Below, piece by piece: positions 7,392-53,181 of a DNA stretch of 64,000 bases (position 1 is the first letter of the stretch; every line of letters begins with the position of its first letter). A program made the translations under genes and the position numbers. A model generated the notes under the pieces. That model did no database searches, was not told where the DNA came from, and worked only from the letters and a program-made list of their open reading frames with translations. The stretch is from Alkalinema sp. FACHB-956 (GTDB lineage Bacteria; Cyanobacteriota; Cyanobacteriia; Leptolyngbyales; Leptolyngbyaceae): contig NZ_JACJRC010000011.1 of the NCBI RefSeq assembly GCF_014697025.1, positions 1 through 64,000 of the forward strand, given 5' to 3'.

Positions 7392-7747
7392 CTAGGACGC
7401 AATCTGGGACGCGAACGCGGAATCACGCCACCGAGCAAAATCAATTCATTAATTTTTTGACCCGTCTTCAAATTTTCTTTAAAACTCTTTTCTAAAGTAT
7501 CTGTGTTTATGACTTCGTCCTAAGTTAGAGCATCAACTGCAACAAATGACTGATCGCCCCCAATGTTCTGGGGTATTTCGAAGTCTTAGGTTGCACGCCC
7601 AACGCCAGTCAATCAGTGCATTCTGATTCAGTGATTCAGTTCATATTGCATTTTGATCGGTCAATGTTTGACCGATCGGTGTTCGATTGACTGATTTGTT
7701 CCTGGCAATCTCGGACTTCTGTTGGTTGTAATAGGAGAACTTTGTTC
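7392..7747 (+). promoter_or_regulatory. cpeC upstream region and structured leader
   Basis: This 356-bp gap before cpeC holds a nested structure. CAGTCAATC (7606-7614) pairs with GATTGACTG (7685-7693), enclosing a perfect 10-bp hairpin, GATCGGTCAA at 7655-7664 and TTGACCGATC at 7668-7677, with a 3-nt loop. A good ribosome binding site (TAGGAGA) lies just before ATG 7748. In F. diplosiphon the Cgi light-colour pathway is reported to act through the cpeC leader by an attenuation-like mechanism, so a conserved hairpin here is meaningful. The promoter itself cannot be fixed by eye. Confidence 0.6.
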
Positions 7748-8608
7748 ATGGTATTTGGACCCGCTTCCCGTTTAGGCGTTGCCCTATTTGACAGTACTCC
7801 CCCGATCGAGTCCGCACCGGGCAGCTCTAACGAAGATAAAGAAACCACCATTCGCGCCATTTATCGGCAGATTCTGGGAAATGCCTACGTCATGGAGAGC
7901 GAACGCCTCACCGTCCCCGAATCACAATTTAAGCGGGGCGAACTGAGTGTACGTGAATTCATTCGGCAGGTGGCTAAGTCCGAACTCTATCGCTCCCGTT
8001 TTTTTAGCAATGTGCCCCGCTATCGATCGATCGAACTCAACTTCCGCCATCTCTTGGGGCGCACCCCCGCAGACCTGGAAGAAATGCGCACCCACAGCAC
8101 CATTCTGGACAGCGCAGGCTTTGAAGCTGAAATCGATTCCTACCTAGACAGCGACGAATATCAAACGACATTTGGCGAACACATCGTTCCCTATATTCGG
8201 GGTTACAAAACCGAAGCCACCCAAAACATGGTGCAATTTACCCACCTGTTTGAAATGGTACGGGGCGCATCCAGCAGCAGCCTCAAAGGCAATCTAGCCG
8301 GTAAGAGCCCCCGCTTAAATTCCCTCGTGATTCAGTCTACGCCGACGGCAGTTGTGTCTCCAGCCAGTTCTGGAGCCACCTTCCGCACTCCAGCCAATAC
8401 CGCCCGTACCTGCCAACGGTTCAACGGAGCAGATTCCGGCAAAATTTACCGGATCGAAGTCACCGGGTATCGCGCCAAAGCCGTGAAATCCGTTTCCCCC
8501 TACCGTCGCAGCAACCAAGTACTCTTTGTTCCGTTTGAGCAATTATCTTCGGCTTACCAGCGAATTCATCGGCAGGGTGGCGTCATTGCCAGCATTACCC
8601 CTGTCTAA
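7748..8608 (+). CDS. cpeC: Phycoerythrin-associated rod linker CpeC
   Basis: A 286-aa phycobilisome rod linker. An N-terminal PBS-linker domain (about 20-165) has ILGNAYVMESERL, VREFIRQVAKSELYRSRFF and ELNFRHLLGR; a Ser/Ala/Pro-rich stretch leads to a C-terminal CpcD-like domain (about 230-286, IYRIEVTGYR...GGVIASI). MVFGPASRLGVALF at the start is typical of CpeC. Start ATG 7748 follows TAGGAGA; TTG 7742 is less likely. It joins phycoerythrin hexamers in the distal rod. It is the first gene of the cpeCD unit, 43 bp before cpeD. Confidence 0.92.
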   Translation: MVFGPASRLGVALFDSTPPIESAPGSSNEDKETTIRAIYRQILGNAYVMESERLTVPESQFKRGELSVREFIRQVAKSELYRSRFFSNVPRYRSIELNFRHLLGRTPADLEEMRTHSTILDSAGFEAEIDSYLDSDEYQTTFGEHIVPYIRGYKTEATQNMVQFTHLFEMVRGASSSSLKGNLAGKSPRLNSLVIQSTPTAVVSPASSGATFRTPANTARTCQRFNGADSGKIYRIEVTGYRAKAVKSVSPYRRSNQVLFVPFEQLSSAYQRIHRQGGVIASITPV

Positions 8609-26112: not shown

Positions 26113-26859
26113 GTGGCTCTTCCCCTGCTGTCCTACGCTCCTACCACTCAGAACCAGCGGGTCGCTGGCTATGAGGTCGGGAGTAGTGACCAACCCCGTC
26201 TGTTTTCCACTGACAATTTGCTCTCTTCCAGCGACATGGATACGCTGATTGAAGCGGCCTATCGTCAAATTTTCTTCCACGCCTTTGCCGTCGATCGGGA
26301 GCGTTTCTTAGAGTCCCAATTGCGCAATGGCCAAATTACTGTTCGTGAATTCATTCGGGGGCTCTGCTTAGCCAGTACCTTCACGAAAAGCTTCTACAAC
26401 CTCAACAGCAATTATCGCTTCGTTGAGCATTGCATTAACCGCGTTCTCGGTCGCGCTCCCTACAACGAACAGGAAAAGATCGCTTGGTCGATCGTGGTAG
26501 CAACGAAGGGTCGGGCGGGTTTCATTAATGCGTTGCTCGATAGCGAAGAGTACCTCACCAATTTTGGCGATAATACGGTGCCCTATCAGCGTCGTCGCAC
26601 CTTGCCCTCTGGTGCCGCTGAGGTTCCCTTCAATATCCAAAATCCTCGCTACGACGAGTACTATCGCGCCAAGTTGGGCTTCCCTCAAATTGTTTGGCAG
26701 TCTACTGTCAAGCGCTTTACGCCCCAAGAACAGCAGGCCAAGGCTGGCAATCCCGCCAATTTCTTGGATATGGCTCGCGGCTTGTCCACGCCCCCGATCG
26801 GTCAGCCGGTTGTCTCGGCCATGAATGTTGACTTTATTAATGGCGTTCCCCGCCGTTAA
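26113..26859 (+). CDS. cpcG: Phycobilisome rod-core linker CpcG
   Basis: A 248-aa rod-core linker. It starts with GTG as [23 protein letters not shown], the CpcG signature, with GGAGG eight bases upstream. The PBS-linker domain (about 40-185) has [49 protein letters not shown] and [12 protein letters not shown]. The C-terminal part (about 190-248) has no CpcL-type membrane helix, so it is the conventional CpcG that attaches rods to the allophycocyanin core. It is followed by a textbook terminator. Confidence 0.93.
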
Positions 26860-35476: not shown

Positions 35477-36502
35477 TTAACCTTCTACCGCACTGAGAGC
35501 CCGCTCCACCCGACGGAAGTCAAACCCCATCGCGCGCAATGCGTGCCACAGATGACCTTGCAGGAAGAAGAACGCCAAGAAGAAATGAGTATTCGCCAAC
35601 CAAGCCCGGGCAGTATGTTGACCCATCGGCAGCACGATCGAATCCGCAAAATAGGGAGCAACCCCAAATTTCACATTCAGGACTGGGCCATAAAATTCCA
35701 CCGGATAGGCCGTGGTATTGACTGCACAGAAATAAGCAGCGACAAATCCAGCCAGGGCAATCCCCCCTAGGGAATAGGACAAAATCGCCTCACCAGAAAA
35801 GAGCAGCACTTTTTTCGCCCAAGCCAGCGGTGGCACCAGAATATGCCAAATCCCGCCACCGACCAGCATCAAGCCCACAAAAATATGGCCACCGACGATA
35901 TCTTCCAAGTTATCCACCGTCGCAAAGTGGGTTTGATAGCCAAAAATAGTCAGGGGATCTAGCGTAGGAGCCGTCACAGCCCGCACCGTTTGGGTTGCAG
36001 CATCATACAGCCCCCCATTCATGGCATACCAGGCAAACAGCAACGCCCCAGCTCCCAGGAACAACAAATGGTGGCCCAAAATTAAGCCCAACTGTTTGGG
36101 ATCTTCCCAATCGAAGTGGAACTTTTTCGCACGCCCTTCCGCATCTTTCAAACTAGCCGGAGCTTTAAACGTGTGGAACAGCGCACCCGCACCCAGCACC
36201 GCCGAAGCAATTAAGTGAACCACCCCCACCACAAAGTAGGGATAGAGATCCACAATTTTTCCGCCATCGCCAACCCCCAAGCCCAAGCTAGCCAAGTGGG
36301 GCAGCAGAATGAATCCCTGTTCGCCAAGGGGAAGCTTGGGATCGAACCAAGACAGCTCATACAGAGTAAACGCCCCAGCCCACAGAGTCGTCAATGCAGC
36401 CTGCCCCACATGGGCCGCCACAAATAATCCCGATTTCTCCGCGAATCGTGCGTTACCTGCCCACCAGTCATACTTGACTGTGGCGTTTCCATAACTTTGC
36501 AT
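35477..36502 (-). CDS. isiA: IsiA/CP43'-type chlorophyll-binding protein
   Basis: A 341-aa six-helix membrane protein of the CP43'/IsiA/Pcb family. Start ATG 36502 ([25 protein letters not shown]) has AAGGAGG seven bases upstream; a longer frame adds 15 unlikely residues. Chlorophyll-ligand histidines are visible in [29 protein letters not shown] and [11 protein letters not shown]. IsiA forms rings around photosystem I under iron limitation. The short lumenal loops distinguish it from PsbC. An 8-bp palindrome precedes it. Confidence 0.9.
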
Positions 36503-36563
36503 CCAGCCCTCCTTCTTTGGGCGATCGAAATAATCATTCAAAAGCAAAATCTATCTATTGCAA

Positions 36564-41766: not shown

Positions 41767-44700
41767 TTGCAGTATCTTGCTGTTGCAGTACGTGCTTCTA
41801 TGCCTCGCCCCCGCTCAACCATGATGAACTGGAAACCCCATCCCAAAGCAGTTCAGTCCTTCGGAGTGCTTCTACTGATCGGAGCCAGCCTTGAACTTTT
41901 GACCCGCATTGGCGGTGAATTTCTCTGGTTCCAAGAAGTGGGCTATTCCACCCTCTGGTTGCAGCGTACCCTGACCCAGGGCGGCATTGGCTTGATGGTC
42001 TTTGGTGTGACCGCTAGCTACCTTCTGGCCAACCTGCGCCTAGCCCGCCGCTGGAAATATCCAGCACCGACACCCACCCCGCCTCGCTTCTCAACGGCTG
42101 CTAATCTCCCACCGGCCACCCCCGATCGATCGCCCCGTCCCACCCCCCTAGGATGGCCGATCCTCTTTCCCCTCGCAGGAGGAGCCAGTTTAGGCACGAT
42201 TGCGCTCCTGTGGTATTACGGCAGTATTGCAGTCCAGAGTTTGCAACTGTCTGCCTCCCAACAATTTCTAGCTGTTCCTATTCGCTTTCAACCAGAAATT
42301 TTAGGAACCCTTCTGTCCCAGATGCTTGCCCACGACTGGGCTATTTGGCTCGGGCTTGTGAGTGTCTTGGCCGTGCTATGGAAACCTCAACGCATTCTAA
42401 ATGGATTGGCGATCGGGTTTTCCGCGATTGTTTCAGCCATCCTCTCCCAGCATTGGGATAAATTTCTGCAAGCTTTGTATGCGAATTCCTTTAACGTTAA
42501 AGATCCCGTTTTCCAATCTGATTTTTCATTTTATATTTTACAGTTGCCTATTGCGCAGTTATTTGAATTTTGGTTAACCGGCTTAGCTTTCTTTGGTTTT
42601 GTCTCCGTTGCTTTGGTTTATCTGCTCTCCGCCAATAGTTTGAGTGAAGGTAAATTTCCGGGGTTTTCCTGGTCACAAAAACGACATTTATACGGCCTCG
42701 GTAGCGTTCTCATGGGCGTTGTGGCCTTGGGCTATTGGCTCAGTCGCTATGAGTTGCTGTATTCCTCACGGGGCGTCACCTTTGGCGCGAGCTATACTGA
42801 CTTGACTGTCCAACTGCCTGCGGATACTTTGCTCAGTTTACTAGCAGGCGCGATCGGGCTTTATTTCCTCTGGCGCAACCGCTTCTGGCCCCAGGAACCT
42901 TCCAGTCGGCGACGGGTGGTGTACTTGGTGGGAATTTATCTCGCGTTAGCAGGCTTGTTAGGCGCGGGACTGCCGACTCTAGTACAATCGGCCATTGTGC
43001 AACCCAACGAGCTCGCGCGGGAACGTCCCTATATTGAACGAACGATCGCCCTGACGCGCAAAGCATTTAACTTAGACAACATTGATGTACAGCCCTTTAA
43101 TCCCCAAGGTAAGCTGACAGAAGCCGATCTACAAACCAATGATTTGACGATTCGCAATATTCGCCTGTGGGATGAGCGACCTTTATTAGAAACCAATCGC
43201 CAACTTCAGCAAATTCGATCGTACTACCGTTTTCCGGGTGCTGATATCGATCGCTACGTGCTCCCAGAAACCGGAACCCAACCTTCAGCCCAATCGCGCC
43301 AACCCACTCCAGCCCCCAGCAATGCTGCCAGCAGTCGCGAACAACGGCAAATTCTAATCGCAGCGCGGGAACTGGACTATGCAGGAGTCCCCAAACAGGC
43401 ACAAACTTGGGTCAATCGCCATTTAATTTACACCCATGGCTATGGATTCACCCTCAGCCCGGTTAATACCGTTGGGGTGGGTGGGCTGCCAGAATACTTC
43501 GTCAAAGATCTCGGCGTTGGCCCCGGTGGGTCCCTTTCCACATCCAGCGAAGCGATTCGGAACAGTATCCCGATCGGTCAACCCCGGATTTACTACGGTG
43601 AACTGACCAATAGCTATGTCATGACCGGAACACGGGTGCAGGAATTGGATTATCCCAGCGGTAGTGACAACGTTTACAACACCTACGATGGTCAAGGGGG
43701 CATTCAAATTGGCACCGGCTGGAAACGCTGGCTGTTTGCCAAATACCTGAATGATTGGCGGATGGCCATTACACCAGAGTTCTTACCCCAAACCCGATTA
43801 TTGATGCGCCGGAATATTTACGATCGCATCCAAGCGATCGCGCCCTTTCTGCGCTATGACCGCGATCCCTACCTAGTCGTTACTGATGTTAACGCTGGCA
43901 AGACCAATGCTATCAATCCAGGCGGGAAATCTGCACCATCACCGAACTATCTCTATTGGGTGATTGATGCCTATACGATTAGCGATCATGCACCTTACTC
44001 TGATCCCGGTGAAGATCAGATTAATTACATTCGCAATTCCGTTAAAGTTGTCATCGATGCCTATAACGGATCGGTTAATTTTTACATTGCTGATTCCACT
44101 GATCCAGTCATTCAAACCTGGGCCAAGATTTTTCCAACTTTACTGAAACCGCTAACTGCGATGCCTCAACCATTACAACAGCATCTCCGTTACCCGATCG
44201 ACTTCTTTAACATTCAATCTCAACGCTTAATGACCTATCACATGACCGATCCCCAGGTCTTTTACAATCGCGAGGATGAATGGCAAATTCCCACGGAAAT
44301 CTACGGCGATCAACTCCAGCCCGTCAAACCCTACTATCTAATTACCAGCTTGCCCACAGAGCCCTTTGAGGAATTTCTCCTACTGCGCCCTTTTACTCCC
44401 CGCCAACGAACCAATTTAGTGGCTTGGTTAGCCGCGCGATCGGATGGAACCCACTATGGTAAATTGCTGCTCTACATTTTCCCGAAGGAGCGACTCATCT
44501 ATGGCCCCGAACAAATTGAAGCACGGATTAACCAAGATCCCGTGATTTCTCAACAAATTTCCCTCTGGAACCGCCAAGGCTCCCGCGCCATTCAAGGGAA
44601 TTTGCTCGTGATTCCGATCGAGCAGTCCCTACTCTACGTCGAACCCTTATATTTAGAAGCAACCCAAAATAGTTTGCCGACCCTCGTGCGGGTCATTGTT

Positions 44701-44823
44701 GCCTACGAAAACCAGATTGTGATGGCTCCAACGCTGGATCAAGCCCTCGCAGCCCTGTTCCAAACCCAGAAGCCATCCCAACCCACGATCGTGCGTCCCG
44801 TCGAACCTCCCAGTCGCCCGTAA
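41767..44823 (+). CDS. UPF0182-family large membrane protein
   Basis: A 1018-aa protein with about seven transmembrane helices in the first 330 residues (for instance [45 protein letters not shown]) followed by a large soluble part. Signatures are [30 protein letters not shown]-like [25 protein letters not shown] and [16 protein letters not shown]. The family is conserved in cyanobacteria and actinobacteria with unknown function. ATGs at 41800 and 41821 are alternative starts. Confidence 0.88.
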
Positions 44824-48950: not shown

Positions 48951-49235
48951 CTAACGCTCCTGGAGTTCGGTTGCCATCTCCACTTCTACACTTTCTAAGA
49001 GGATCTCCTGGGCCAGGGGATCCTGAATGTTATCGAGGACAGTAATTTCTAGCTGTGCATTTTCTGCAACTGTGCCCTGGGCCGCTTGTTGAAAGTGCGA
49101 TCGGAAATGTTCCGGAGTCAAATGGGAAAGTGCACCGATCTGAACTGTGATGCGGGTGGCCCGAATGCCCTGTTGTTCCATAACAATGGTCTGAATGGTT
49201 TCAAGCAAATTTTTGAGCAAACTGGCTTCATGCAT
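48951..49235 (-). CDS. HypA-like protein lacking the zinc domain
   Basis: A 94-aa protein with the HypA N-terminus MHEASLLKNLLETI, including the nickel-binding His2 and Glu3, and ITVQIGALSHLTPEHFRSHFQ. True HypA (about 115 aa) has four zinc-binding cysteines between its halves; here this loop is replaced by TVLDNIQDPLAQ and no Cys remains. The C-terminal strand ESVEVEM is present. It overlaps the hydrogenase protease gene by 8 bp, so it probably serves the same hydrogenase; nickel delivery without the zinc site is uncertain. Confidence 0.8.
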   Translation of the reverse strand: MHEASLLKNLLETIQTIVMEQQGIRATRITVQIGALSHLTPEHFRSHFQQAAQGTVAENAQLEITVLDNIQDPLAQEILLESVEVEMATELQER

Positions 49236-49761
49236 GATTGGATGCCTGCTGGGATGGCTCGGGATGGCAAGGTTCTAAAGAGAACTGTTCTAATTCGATG
49301 AGCATGGCTTGGACGATCGTTTCAACCGCTTGTTCCACGTCCGGAGATAAGCCCAGGCCCATCGCAAAGTGTTTTCCTTCAACTCCCCAGAGAATCAGTT
49401 CCGGCGGGAGTTGCTGGAGCGATCGGGCCAGTTCCACCGCCTCCGCCACACTAAAGGCATGGGTGGAGTAATGGAAAAAGGCCGTGGGGACGGTTTCTTG
49501 ATGGGCTGCAATGCGATGGATGGTGCCTACGGTTGCCCCCGAAGCCACCGCATCAAACAGATAGACCCGATCGAACCCCTGCCAAGCCTCCAGCAGTGCA
49601 GCCCCTTCCCCAGAGGCTTCGATCATCGTGGTCATCGCTGCAATCTGAACCGGCAACCGTGATCGCAGCGATCGTACAATGGCCAATCCCACCCCATCAT
49701 CTTGCCGAAACTCATTCCCCACACCGATTAAAAGAACTGTATCCAGAAATTGCTCTAACAT
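49228..49761 (-). CDS. [NiFe]-hydrogenase maturation protease
   Basis: A 177-aa HycI/HoxW/HupD-type endopeptidase that removes the C-terminal peptide of the large subunit after nickel insertion. Conserved parts: IGVGNEFRQDDGVGLAI with nickel-recognising Glu/Asp, YLFDAVASGATVG with Asp, and STHAFSVAEAVELAR with His. It lies in the hydrogenase locus downstream of the large subunit gene and overlaps the HypA-like gene. The large subunit here still has the cleavable tail, so a protease is needed. Confidence 0.88.
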   Translation of the reverse strand: MLEQFLDTVLLIGVGNEFRQDDGVGLAIVRSLRSRLPVQIAAMTTMIEASGEGAALLEAWQGFDRVYLFDAVASGATVGTIHRIAAHQETVPTAFFHYSTHAFSVAEAVELARSLQQLPPELILWGVEGKHFAMGLGLSPDVEQAVETIVQAMLIELEQFSLEPCHPEPSQQASNHA

Positions 49762-49762
49762 C

Positions 49763-50467
49763 CTAGCTTGAAGAAGGTGAAGGTTGTGGAGTCGGTTTTG
49801 GTGCAGATGTAACAGGAGTTGCTTTATGGATCACAGTAGGGGTTGTAGAACTTGCAGGTGACATGTTGCTGAGCAGTTCCTGGATTTCAGAAATCTTGGG
49901 TGCCTGCTCATCAATCACACCCTTGGCCCAATGTCTAATCTCTAGATTACGTGCATTATCCCGAGCAAGATAAGCTAATTTAACTGAAACTTGCAAATTA
50001 TGACGCATTTGTAAGAGGTAAGCTCGATCGTCCGTAAAATTAGACTTACTCTCAGGCAATTGATCGATTAGGCCAAGACGTTCAGCTTTATATTCGATTT
50101 TATACCATTCACGATATTTCGCTTTGATGTTTTTGATGACCTCCTCTAAACTACCTTTTTTGTGAGGTGACAATTGAGGACTTTGATCCAGAATTTGAGT
50201 TGCTAAAGTTTGAACATCAGATTGTGTCGCATTATTTTTTGCTTGAGATGCAATCCGATATAACTGTTCTTCATAGGGCAAAATCATCTCGATAAATTGC
50301 TTGTCAGGTCTAGTACTTTCCTCAGTAGAAAGTTTGACTTCTGACCGATGCAACAGAGTTGAATCCAGTTGCCACATTCCGACCCCATAGGTAATTCCTA
50401 CTGCAGTTAAAACGGCTGCTCCTAAGGCACTCAGAACTGGTACCCACGGTAGCTTTCTAGCTTCCAT
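49763..50467 (-). CDS. Membrane-anchored, DUF305-like helical protein
   Basis: A 234-aa protein with one N-terminal membrane helix (about 8-30, LSALGAAVLTAVGITYGVG), an all-helical exported domain and a Pro/Ser-rich tail. The domain resembles DUF305: IEMILPYEEQLYRIASQAKN...LATQILDQSPQ and a second unit RAYLLQMRHNLQVSVKLAYLA...WAKGVIDEQAPKI. The metal-type His pair of DUF305 (MIPHH) is changed to LPYEE. It lies between the hydrogenase large subunit and its protease, so it may be an accessory factor; function unknown. Confidence 0.65.
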   Translation of the reverse strand: MEARKLPWVPVLSALGAAVLTAVGITYGVGMWQLDSTLLHRSEVKLSTEESTRPDKQFIEMILPYEEQLYRIASQAKNNATQSDVQTLATQILDQSPQLSPHKKGSLEEVIKNIKAKYREWYKIEYKAERLGLIDQLPESKSNFTDDRAYLLQMRHNLQVSVKLAYLARDNARNLEIRHWAKGVIDEQAPKISEIQELLSNMSPASSTTPTVIHKATPVTSAPKPTPQPSPSSS

Positions 50468-50609
50468 ACGTAGACTCTCCCTGACTTAACATACTGAATT
50501 ATTCAGTTCATTCTGTTTTTTAATTCCATCAAATTCTTCAATCAATCTAGTTTGTAATCTAATCAAAAAAGATGAGGATTATGTGAAGATTGATCCATCT
50601 GAGGATATT

Positions 50610-51917
50610 CTAATTTTCTCGATCGACCTCTAATTTCAAAAAGTGGGTTGAACAGGAAATGCAAGGATCGTAATTGCGAATAACCTGTTCGCACTGTAGC
50701 CGCAATTGATCATCAGGTAAATCTAAATAGCGATCGACAAACTGCCACAGATCCGCTTCAATCATAGACTGATTTTGGGAAGTGGGTGGCGTAATCCGCG
50801 CGTCTAAAATATCCCCTTGGGCATCAACACAATAGCGATGGTAACAAATGCCGCGCGGGGCTTCCGTACAGCCGTGCCCCGTCCCCGCCTGCACAGTGTA
50901 ATCCACCACAGGTTGCGCGATCGGCCCCTCGCCCTGCTGATCATAGGTTTCAATTAATCGTAGGGCTTCCTCCGCTGCAAAGAGAACCTCGATCGATCGG
51001 ACAATAATGCTTTTAAAGGGATTACGACAGGTTCCCGGTAATCCAGCAGCCTGAGCCGCCGCCTTGGCCCGTGGCGTCAGTTGCTCAAAATTCAGATTAA
51101 ACCGAGCCAGAGGCCCCACTAAATAATGCCCCCCTGCTTTAAGCACCGCCTGAAGGGCCGTGGAATGGGGCACCTGACGCTCTTCAAAATGATCCAAAAA
51201 GGCTGAAATTGGAATCTCTAAACCCCGATTGGACACCAGTTGTCCTTCAGTAATGGCATAGTCCGTTGGGTGGTGTAGGGCCACAAATTCATAGTCCTGC
51301 TCAAAATCCGGGAAAGGCAAGGTAGCTAACCATTGTACCGTTGCCTCCGCTGCCTCACAGGCCCAATTCAAGTCATCCACCAGCGATCGTAATTCCGATG
51401 CCGTGGGTAATTTATAAAATCCACCCACCCGCAAATTAATCGGATGAACTTCCCGCCCCCCAATCAATGACAGAATGTGATTACCAATTTTCTTCAACCG
51501 CAATCCCCGTTGCACCAATTCAGGATAGTCCTTAGCCATCGCGATCGCGCTATCATAGCCCAGAAAATCCGGCGCATGGAGCATAAAAATATGCAAACTA
51601 TGGCTCTCCATCCACTCCCCACAATAGATTAAGCGACGGAGCAGACGAATGCTGGACGGAACTTGCAGGCCAAAGGCATTTTCCATTGCCTGAATGGCCC
51701 CTAACATATAGGCGATCGGGCAAATGCCACAAATCCGAGCCGTAATATCCGGAGCTTCGCTATACTTGCGCCCCCGCAAAAAGGCTTCAAAAAAGCGGGG
51801 CGGTTCAAAGATTTTGAATTGAACTTCCTTAACCTTATTGTCCCGTACCTTGACGTAGAGTGCCCCCTCCCCTTCCACTCTGGCCAGATAATTCACTTTG
51901 ATGGTTTTACGGCTCAT
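50610..51917 (-). CDS. [NiFe]-hydrogenase large subunit, group 3-like
   Basis: A 435-aa catalytic subunit. Nickel ligands: Cys63 and Cys66 in [10 protein letters not shown] and Cys419, Cys422 in DPCISCSTH near the C-terminus. After His425 a 10-residue tail ([10 protein letters not shown]) would be cut off by the protease. Start ATG 51917 ([18 protein letters not shown]) overlaps the small subunit gene by 11 bp. The sequence resembles group 3b-type large subunits rather than HoxH or HupL, from memory. Unlike HoxEFUYH there are no diaphorase genes nearby. It should take up or evolve H2 with an unknown electron partner. Confidence 0.88.
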
Positions 51918-52698
51918 GGCGATCGCTCTCTTTGCGGAAGGCTTCAGCATAGGCATTGAAACTGCGGTAGGCTCGCACCAAATCCACAGCACTGACCCCC
52001 AATTTTTGCCATTCTTGGCTCAGGGATGGGGTATTGGGACTTTCCATGGGGCCATAGCAGCCGTAGCAGCCCCGGTGATAGGTGGGACACAGGGCTTGAC
52101 ATCCAGCCTGGGTGACCGGGCCAAGGCAAGGCGTTCCGTGGGCGACCATGACGCACAGATTCCCCCGCCGCTTACATTCCACGCACACGCTATAGGTGGG
52201 AATATTGGGTTTACGATCGTGGAGAAAGGCGTTAATCACTTCTAATAACTGGTATTTATTAATGGGACAACCCCGTAATTCAAAATCCACAAAAACGTGA
52301 TCGGCAATGGCAGTGGATTTACTCAGGGTATTAATGTACTCCGGTTGGGCATAGACGATCGAGGTAAATTCTTTCACATCTTTAAAATTGCGCAGCGCTT
52401 GGATGCCGCCGGATGTGGCACAGGCTCCGATCGTGACCAGGTGCTTTGATACCCGCCGTACTTGGTGAATGCGTTCCGCATCGTGGGACGTGGTAATCGA
52501 ACCTTCCACCAAGGACAAATCGTAGGGGCCTTTCATTTCTGCACTCGAGGCTTCTGGAAAATAGGCAACTTCCACCTCGTCGGTCAACGCCAGCAATTCA
52601 TCTTCGCAATCCAATAGGCTCAGTTGGCAGCCATCGCAGGAAGCAAACTTCCAGACAGCTAGTTTCGGTTTATGGTAAGGTTTGGGAGCCATAATCAA
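51907..52698 (-). CDS. [NiFe]-hydrogenase small subunit, group 3-like
   Basis: A 263-aa electron-transfer subunit with cysteines for three Fe-S clusters: [34 protein letters not shown], and [35 protein letters not shown]. It has no Tat signal, so it is cytoplasmic, as in group 3. HoxY is only about 180 aa, so this is a different type; the length fits the 3b (HyhS/HydD) form. An ATG two codons in is an alternative start. First of the pair with the large subunit. Confidence 0.87.
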
Positions 52699-52731
52699 GC
52701 GTTGGATTCCATGGCAATGGTTTCAAGCAGC

Positions 52732-53181
52732 CTAGGAGTGATGCAGGACGTCTCGGGCTTTCCGCAGTTTGCCCGCCGGAGACGATCGCAGCCATTGGTA
52801 GGCCACAAGATTTAATAAGAGTCCCACCAGAAAGAGCACAACCATGAGAAGAATCTGAGACCACACAATGGGCTGAACCATGAGATCTGCAACAACATGG
52901 AAAAAATTAAGGATGCTATAGAGCACAGTCACACCAAAATGAATCACACGATATCGATAGGATTCTGTAAAGGCAATTGCAACAATTGCAGCCATCGGAA
53001 TCAGAAAAAATACCAGCATGAGCCAGAATACGATCGAAACATCACTCTCGCTACCTGCATGGGAATGGGCAACATCCAGCCCATGGAAGAGTGGCATCAG
53101 AGCTAGTTGTGTATGAAACAGTAATCCCAACAGGAAAACGACCCAAAGAGCAGTAATTTTTTCACGGTAATTCACCATCAT
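52732..53181 (-). CDS. Small four-helix membrane protein
   Basis: A 149-aa integral membrane protein with four predicted helices (about 8-30, 49-70, 82-100, 105-130). Between helix 1 and 2 is HGLDVAHSHAGSES with three His, a possible metal or haem site, and HFGVTVLY and FFHVVADL in helix 3. No family recognised. It lies 34 bp before the small subunit gene and is codirectional, so it may anchor or connect the hydrogenase to the membrane. This is inference. Confidence 0.65.
   Translation of the reverse strand: MMVNYREKITALWVVFLLGLLFHTQLALMPLFHGLDVAHSHAGSESDVSIVFWLMLVFFLIPMAAIVAIAFTESYRYRVIHFGVTVLYSILNFFHVVADLMVQPIVWSQILLMVVLFLVGLLLNLVAYQWLRSSPAGKLRKARDVLHHS

Follow-up and report, generated by a model that had tools for sequence, protein, structure and literature searches.

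We analysed a stretch of 64,000 nucleotides from the draft genome (6.16 Mb in 59 contigs) of the cyanobacterium Alkalinema sp. FACHB-956. This stretch, here called the window, represents positions 1–64000 of contig C11 (172,152 bases). Between positions 48951 and 53181 it carries a [NiFe]-hydrogenase locus of six open reading frames (ORFs), all on the minus strand and all confirmed at the positions given in the original prediction (Table 1). Two of the genes encode the large and small hydrogenase subunits, referred to as alpha and delta. The ORF list also offers alternative starts for both, namely GTG at 51992 for alpha and TTG at 52698 for delta. No export signal was recognized on delta upon inspection by eye, and no gene for the electron-transferring subunits beta or gamma adjoins the delta-alpha pair, in line with the claim that a gene for an electron-acceptor subunit is missing at this site. 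The four-helix gene is separated from the ATG of delta by 39 bases and the stop codon of the DUF305-like gene from the ATG of the protease gene by a single base.

Table 1. Genes of the hydrogenase locus in the window and of the second locus on the same contig.
Feature	Position	Strand	Characteristics
Short HypA-like protein	48951..49235	-	Pfam HypA 2.7e-13, profile positions 1-66 of 112; 94 amino acids, no cysteine
HycI/HupD-type maturation protease	49228..49761	-	Pfam HycI 3.8e-13
DUF305-like anchored helical protein	49763..50467	-	Pfam DUF305; gene between alpha and protease
Group 3b large subunit alpha, 435 amino acids	50610..51917 (from ATG)	-	Pfam NiFeSe_Hases 1.2e-25; nickel-ligand motifs RICGIC and DPCISCSTH
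Group 3b small subunit delta, 261 amino acids	51907..52692 (from ATG)	-	Pfam Oxidored_q6 1.1e-23
Four-helix membrane protein, 149 amino acids	52732..53181	-	no Pfam family
Beta, cNMP-binding protein and gamma	C11 136778-139313 (outside the window)	one strand	

Judged by their sequences, alpha and delta are the core of a [NiFe]-hydrogenase of group 3b, that is the NAD(P)-coupled type. The best relative of alpha in the Protein Data Bank (PDB) is the alpha subunit of sulfhydrogenase I (SHI) of Pyrococcus furiosus (238.5 bits, 1.4e-69; 9NEZ), as compared to 193.1 bits for Mvh, 155.2 bits for 7T2R, 137.1 bits for the NAD-reducing HoxH-type chain 5XF9, at most 130.7 bits for F420-reducing enzymes and at most 103 bits for group 1 and NiFeSe chains. 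Likewise, delta scores best with SHI delta (145.5 bits; 2.1e-41 with 9E15 and 4.3e-41 with 9NEZ). Inspection of the printed alignments by eye revealed that the four nickel-ligand cysteines of alpha are shared with P. furiosus, as are 12 cysteines of delta, which correspond to the three cluster-binding sets of a group 3b delta subunit. The top NCBIfam models are ShyA (293.5 bits) and HydA (252.6 bits) for alpha, and HydD (165.8 bits) and ShyD (163.6 bits) for delta.

A quick maximum-likelihood tree (95 rows, with HoxH, HupV and the window alpha each entered twice) placed alpha in a four-species cyanobacterial clade together with the homologues from Richelia sp. SL_2_1, Calothrix rhizosoleniae and a genome of the same family, G411 (Shimodaira-Hasegawa-like approximate likelihood ratio test, 98). 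HoxH of pHG1, the HupV-type row and a plasmid row annotated beside a HupU protein all fell far outside this clade, in a tree that holds no cyanobacterial HoxH or HupL rows and none assigned with certainty to 3a or 3c. The predicted cytoplasmic group 3 type was borne out, an identity as HoxYH was rejected on the PDB scores and on this set of tree rows, and an identity as HupSL appears unlikely by the same comparisons. A Pfam search for [NiFe] large subunits returned no second one in the genome, the single hit being reported as two pieces of one frame; the control of this search was positive in 5 of 14 genomes, including Synechococcus elongatus.

The original prediction had described the hydrogenase as an orphan with an open choice of electron acceptor. 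Neither statement survives beyond the window, because homologues of beta and gamma are encoded on the same contig, ~84 kb away from delta and alpha. Searching the genome with gamma and beta of G411 yielded strong matches at C11:136781-137599 (79% identity) and C11:138144-139250 (71–72%), respectively. The genes are arranged on one strand in the order pflA, OsmC-like, beta, cyclic nucleoside monophosphate (cNMP)-binding protein and gamma, and a convergent ORF lies ~95 bases after gamma. Two 4Fe-4S motifs were recognized in beta. Gamma has the domains NAD_binding_1 and DHODB_Fe-S, as appropriate for the FAD/NAD subunit of group 3b. Again, SHI of P. furiosus provides the best solved relatives (9NEZ; gamma 4.7e-48, beta 3.1e-39). 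The top NCBIfam model for beta is HydB/ShyB, and for gamma ShyC/HydG ranks after AsrB and the hydrogenase gamma model PRK08345. What is unusual about this group 3b set is that its genes are split between two places; the adjacency of beta and gamma to delta and alpha is usual but not obligatory in the group.

How far this arrangement departs from the norm became apparent from 80 loci kept from 130 relatives in the genome_contigs collection, with flanks of at most 8 kb and in many cases shorter. As a rule, beta comes first and is followed by the cNMP-binding protein, gamma, delta, alpha and protease. In 57 loci, alpha is preceded by 5.5 kb of sequence or more; beta and gamma are located upstream in all but three of these (54/57; the exceptions being Richelia L003 and the Bryobacteraceae loci L066 and L075), and 50 satisfy the strict rule of one unbroken beta-gamma-delta-alpha run. 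Delta and alpha are ~3 kb or more apart in L006, L048 and L063, and L065 fails the strict rule through an over-long frame. In view of such breaks, the disrupted operon is not unique to the window. Alpha and protease are direct neighbours in 59 loci out of 80, are further apart in 3, and lie at a contig edge in another 3; no protease was detected in the remaining 15. In C. rhizosoleniae, one contig carries beta, the CRP-like gene, gamma and delta and ends inside delta, and another starts with alpha and protease; we infer that the two join. In the metagenome-assembled genome of Richelia sp. SL_2_1, which may be incomplete, the search for beta gave no match and that for gamma only weak ones (best 3.3e-10). 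An ORF resembling 2-oxoacid dehydrogenase acyltransferases lies between delta and alpha in this organism (L003:6248-9290), and a second [NiFe] large subunit (PF00374) precedes the 3b alpha in L066 and L075, both from Acidobacteriota.

G411 (locus L094) possesses an intact single run comprising beta, CRP-like, gamma, delta, alpha, protease, HypA, HypF, HypC, HypD and HypE, whereas here the set is split and interrupted by two extra genes. Identities between both genomes amount to 72% for beta, 72% for the CRP-like protein, 79% for gamma, 85% for delta, 73% for alpha, 62% for the protease and 46% for the short HypA. Differences at codon positions 1, 2 and 3 are 0.15, 0.08 and 0.57 for delta, 0.16, 0.09 and 0.57 for gamma, 0.24, 0.16 and 0.58 for beta, and 0.19, 0.12 and 0.56 for alpha. 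This concentration of changes at the third position in all four subunits is as expected from purifying selection acting on both halves of the set.

The original prediction had further proposed that the two membrane-associated proteins tie the hydrogenase to the membrane. Accordingly phrased as an alternative, delta and alpha would form a stand-alone core that is attached by the four-helix protein, the DUF305-like protein or both, and that delivers electrons to a membrane acceptor. The narrow same-strand gaps make co-transcription of the membrane-protein genes with the hydrogenase genes likely, which speaks for this idea. However, searching the 80 related loci at an E-value of 1e-3 returned no homologue of either protein, and beta and gamma homologues are available in the genome. 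Among 42 genomes of the taxonomic family, seven (own genome included) possess a relative of the four-helix protein, the one in G060 being a fragment with stops. Of the seven, G000 and G411 have a group 3b hydrogenase; no alpha was found in G400, G395 and G060 and, matching by genome handle numbers, no delta in G577 and G581. In G411 the four-helix homologue resides at 1.84 Mb, far from the intact operon at 5.33 Mb, and hydrogenase genes were absent from all five contexts of four-helix homologues that were inspected. The DUF305-like protein has only weak relatives, in 3 of 41 other genomes of the family, and was rejected as a hydrogenase part for this reason. The GC content is 0.416 for its gene and 0.303 for the preceding gap, as compared to 0.503 for the window. 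The membrane tie was therefore rejected for lack of co-occurrence of either protein with group 3b loci, and we regard a membrane-bound core as very unlikely. Both genes look like local additions, and neither the DUF305-like protein, whose gene separates alpha from the protease, nor the four-helix protein is probably part of the enzyme. A gene for an FAD-oxidoreductase-like protein adjoins the four-helix homologue in L139, where it was confirmed, and in L142. Relatives of the window ORF at 41767-44823 (UPF0182) adjoin the four-helix homologue in L143 and lie within ~7 kb of it in L139; the UPF0182 protein and the four-helix protein (52732-53181) may belong together.

A split operon with inserted genes could also be a decaying relic, whose enzyme is no longer made. 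The stronger divergence of protease and HypA from G411 would fit this scenario, as would the rarity of the genes in the class: delta was detected at an E-value of 1e-40 in 2 of 388 genomes, own genome included. Nonetheless, the four subunits all have open frames and have retained their motifs, changes are biased to the third codon position and genes for HypA to HypF are found in the genome, which renders decay improbable. Since the assembly is a draft, the two halves might in reality be adjacent and have been misjoined. However, unrelated genes sit close to both broken sides, that is the four-helix gene in front of delta and the convergent ORF behind gamma, so that a single misjoin is not an easy cause; of all explanations considered, we hold this one to be the least probable. 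Finally, the split could allow the cell to make the delta-alpha core apart from the NAD(P)H module, the core also working alone or docking on another partner, possibly at the membrane via the newly gained four-helix protein. Richelia sp. SL_2_1 would then be the extreme case. We consider such a division of labour quite improbable.

We favour, with a probability of roughly 0.8, the explanation that a soluble alpha-beta-gamma-delta NAD(P)H hydrogenase of the ordinary kind is encoded in two places, the usual operon having been cut between gamma and delta. That is, the beta-CRP-gamma-delta-alpha-protease operon would have been severed at this position in this lineage, and unrelated genes for membrane proteins would have ended up in front of delta and in the gap from alpha to protease. 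The products of both loci would assemble into the four-subunit enzyme, in which electrons would travel between NAD(P)H at gamma and protons/H2 at the NiFe site in alpha, in either direction, via the clusters of beta and delta. NAD(P)H from fermentation may thereby be vented as H2, or H2 may be taken up in the reverse reaction, cofactor and direction being equally presumptive. For group 3b, HydDB gives NADPH oxidation coupled reversibly to H2 evolution (PMC5037454).

Perhaps the enzyme serves as an outlet for fermentative reductant. The gene neighbourhood, which suggests this role, comprises pflA beside beta as well as hypCDE beside adhE, together with pflB (contig C48) and a gene for an ADP-forming acyl-CoA ligase-like protein. 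PflA, PflB, AdhE and HypE all score above their NCBIfam cut-offs. In five of these 80 related loci, the 3b alpha is neighboured by a relative of the acyl-CoA ligase-like protein with 62–66% identity (L048, L063, L064, L066 and L075; all Acidobacteriota, one cut by the contig end), and a sixth match in L011 has 28% identity only; these neighbours lend weak support to a fermentative role.

Several observations weigh against the favoured explanation. No subunit reaches the NCBIfam equivalog cut-offs for SHI/SHII (alpha scores 293.5 and 252.6 where 700 and 880 are required, delta 165.8 and 163.6 where 500 and 460 are required, beta 153.4 instead of 750 and gamma 176.4 instead of 600), and therefore the cofactor preference is not transferable. 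AdhE, PflA, PflB and OsmC gave no match at 1e-10 in the 80 loci and seven further ones including G411, and the suggested link to fermentation thus concerns the gene neighbourhood of this one genome. The genes, their classification and their intact motifs are what can be read from the DNA; expression and assembly of the four-subunit enzyme we infer.

As for named systems, homologues of all four subunits of P. furiosus SHI are encoded here. Unlike in P. furiosus, they are encoded in two places and score below the equivalog cut-offs, beta and gamma are separated by a cNMP-binding gene, and the protease gene is followed by one for a short HypA. HoxEFUYH (group 3d) shares the principle of a cytoplasmic NAD(P)-coupled enzyme, but alpha is remote from pHG1 HoxH in the tree and the gamma domains resemble AsrB/DHOD-B partners. 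Puggioni et al. 2016 (PMC5186783) reported group 3b homologues in three cyanobacteria; these belong to the same enzyme group and are described there with four subunits. Among titles of the open-access literature on cyanobacterial or Leptolyngbya 3b enzymes, none refers to a split operon. In overlapping genome sets that each include the own genome, 386 genomes from the phylum yielded 8 with alpha at an E-value of 1e-60, and 58 relatives yielded 2. Our data correct the impression of an orphan hydrogenase that a 64-kb window invites. They also add a group 3b gene set that is complete and rarely met with; no other [NiFe] hydrogenase was found in this cyanobacterial genome, and the gene neighbourhood suggests a link to pyruvate formate-lyase/AdhE fermentation. 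Since group 3b enzymes attract interest for NADPH-driven H2 production, a photosynthetic organism that has kept the set intact lends itself to testing.

The maturation genes hypA to hypF are all present in the genome, outside the delta-alpha locus. HypD is encoded at C18:7928-9010, preceded by HypC and followed by HypE, adhE and the acyl-CoA ligase-like gene, and HypF at C18:80405-82939, in three pieces of one open frame. Full-length HypA is encoded on contig C27 beside a HypB-like protein and next to an arginase-family ureohydrolase (L095:7967-10527), which resembles the reported arrangement of nickel-dependent ureohydrolases. Activation of recombinant metformin hydrolase reportedly needed HypA/HypB, and nickel chaperones are stated to activate the guanidine hydrolase GdmH as well (PMC11399263). 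Given the adjoining ureohydrolase gene, a function of this pair for hydrogenase only was rejected; by analogy, it may serve the ureohydrolase as well.

The short HypA of the window lacks the Zn-finger cysteines, as compared to 5 cysteines in each of two full-length HypA controls. Short forms without the Zn finger (0–2 cysteines each) recur in 17 of the 80 loci and also in G411, G004, G018 and B. savannae. In G018 the frame was read too long (134 amino acids, 4 cysteines), its end being like the others. In 16 of the 17 loci, the short gene overlaps the protease gene or is separated from it by no more than 200 bases, the distance being 870 bases in L006, and the protein starts with MHE in both the window and G411 (L094:11668-11949). 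Possibly it represents a dedicated form of nickel chaperone, and its recurrence behind the protease gene in 3b operons makes it an accessory protein worth a test.

Promoter- and terminator-like sites were rarer than in shuffled sequence, the repeat search gave nothing informative and a PHROGs search returned a single weak match, to the DUF305-like protein. A Cmr2/Cas10-like protein (PF12469, PF22335) is encoded near gamma on the same contig (L116:4103-5959). Elsewhere in the window, visual inspection suggests a phycobilisome gene cluster extending up to ~31.5 kb, with linker proteins (PF00427) at 7742-8608 and 26113-26859, and the ORF at 35477-36547 resembles IsiA/Pcb proteins by eye and matches the Pfam family Photosystem II protein (PF00421).

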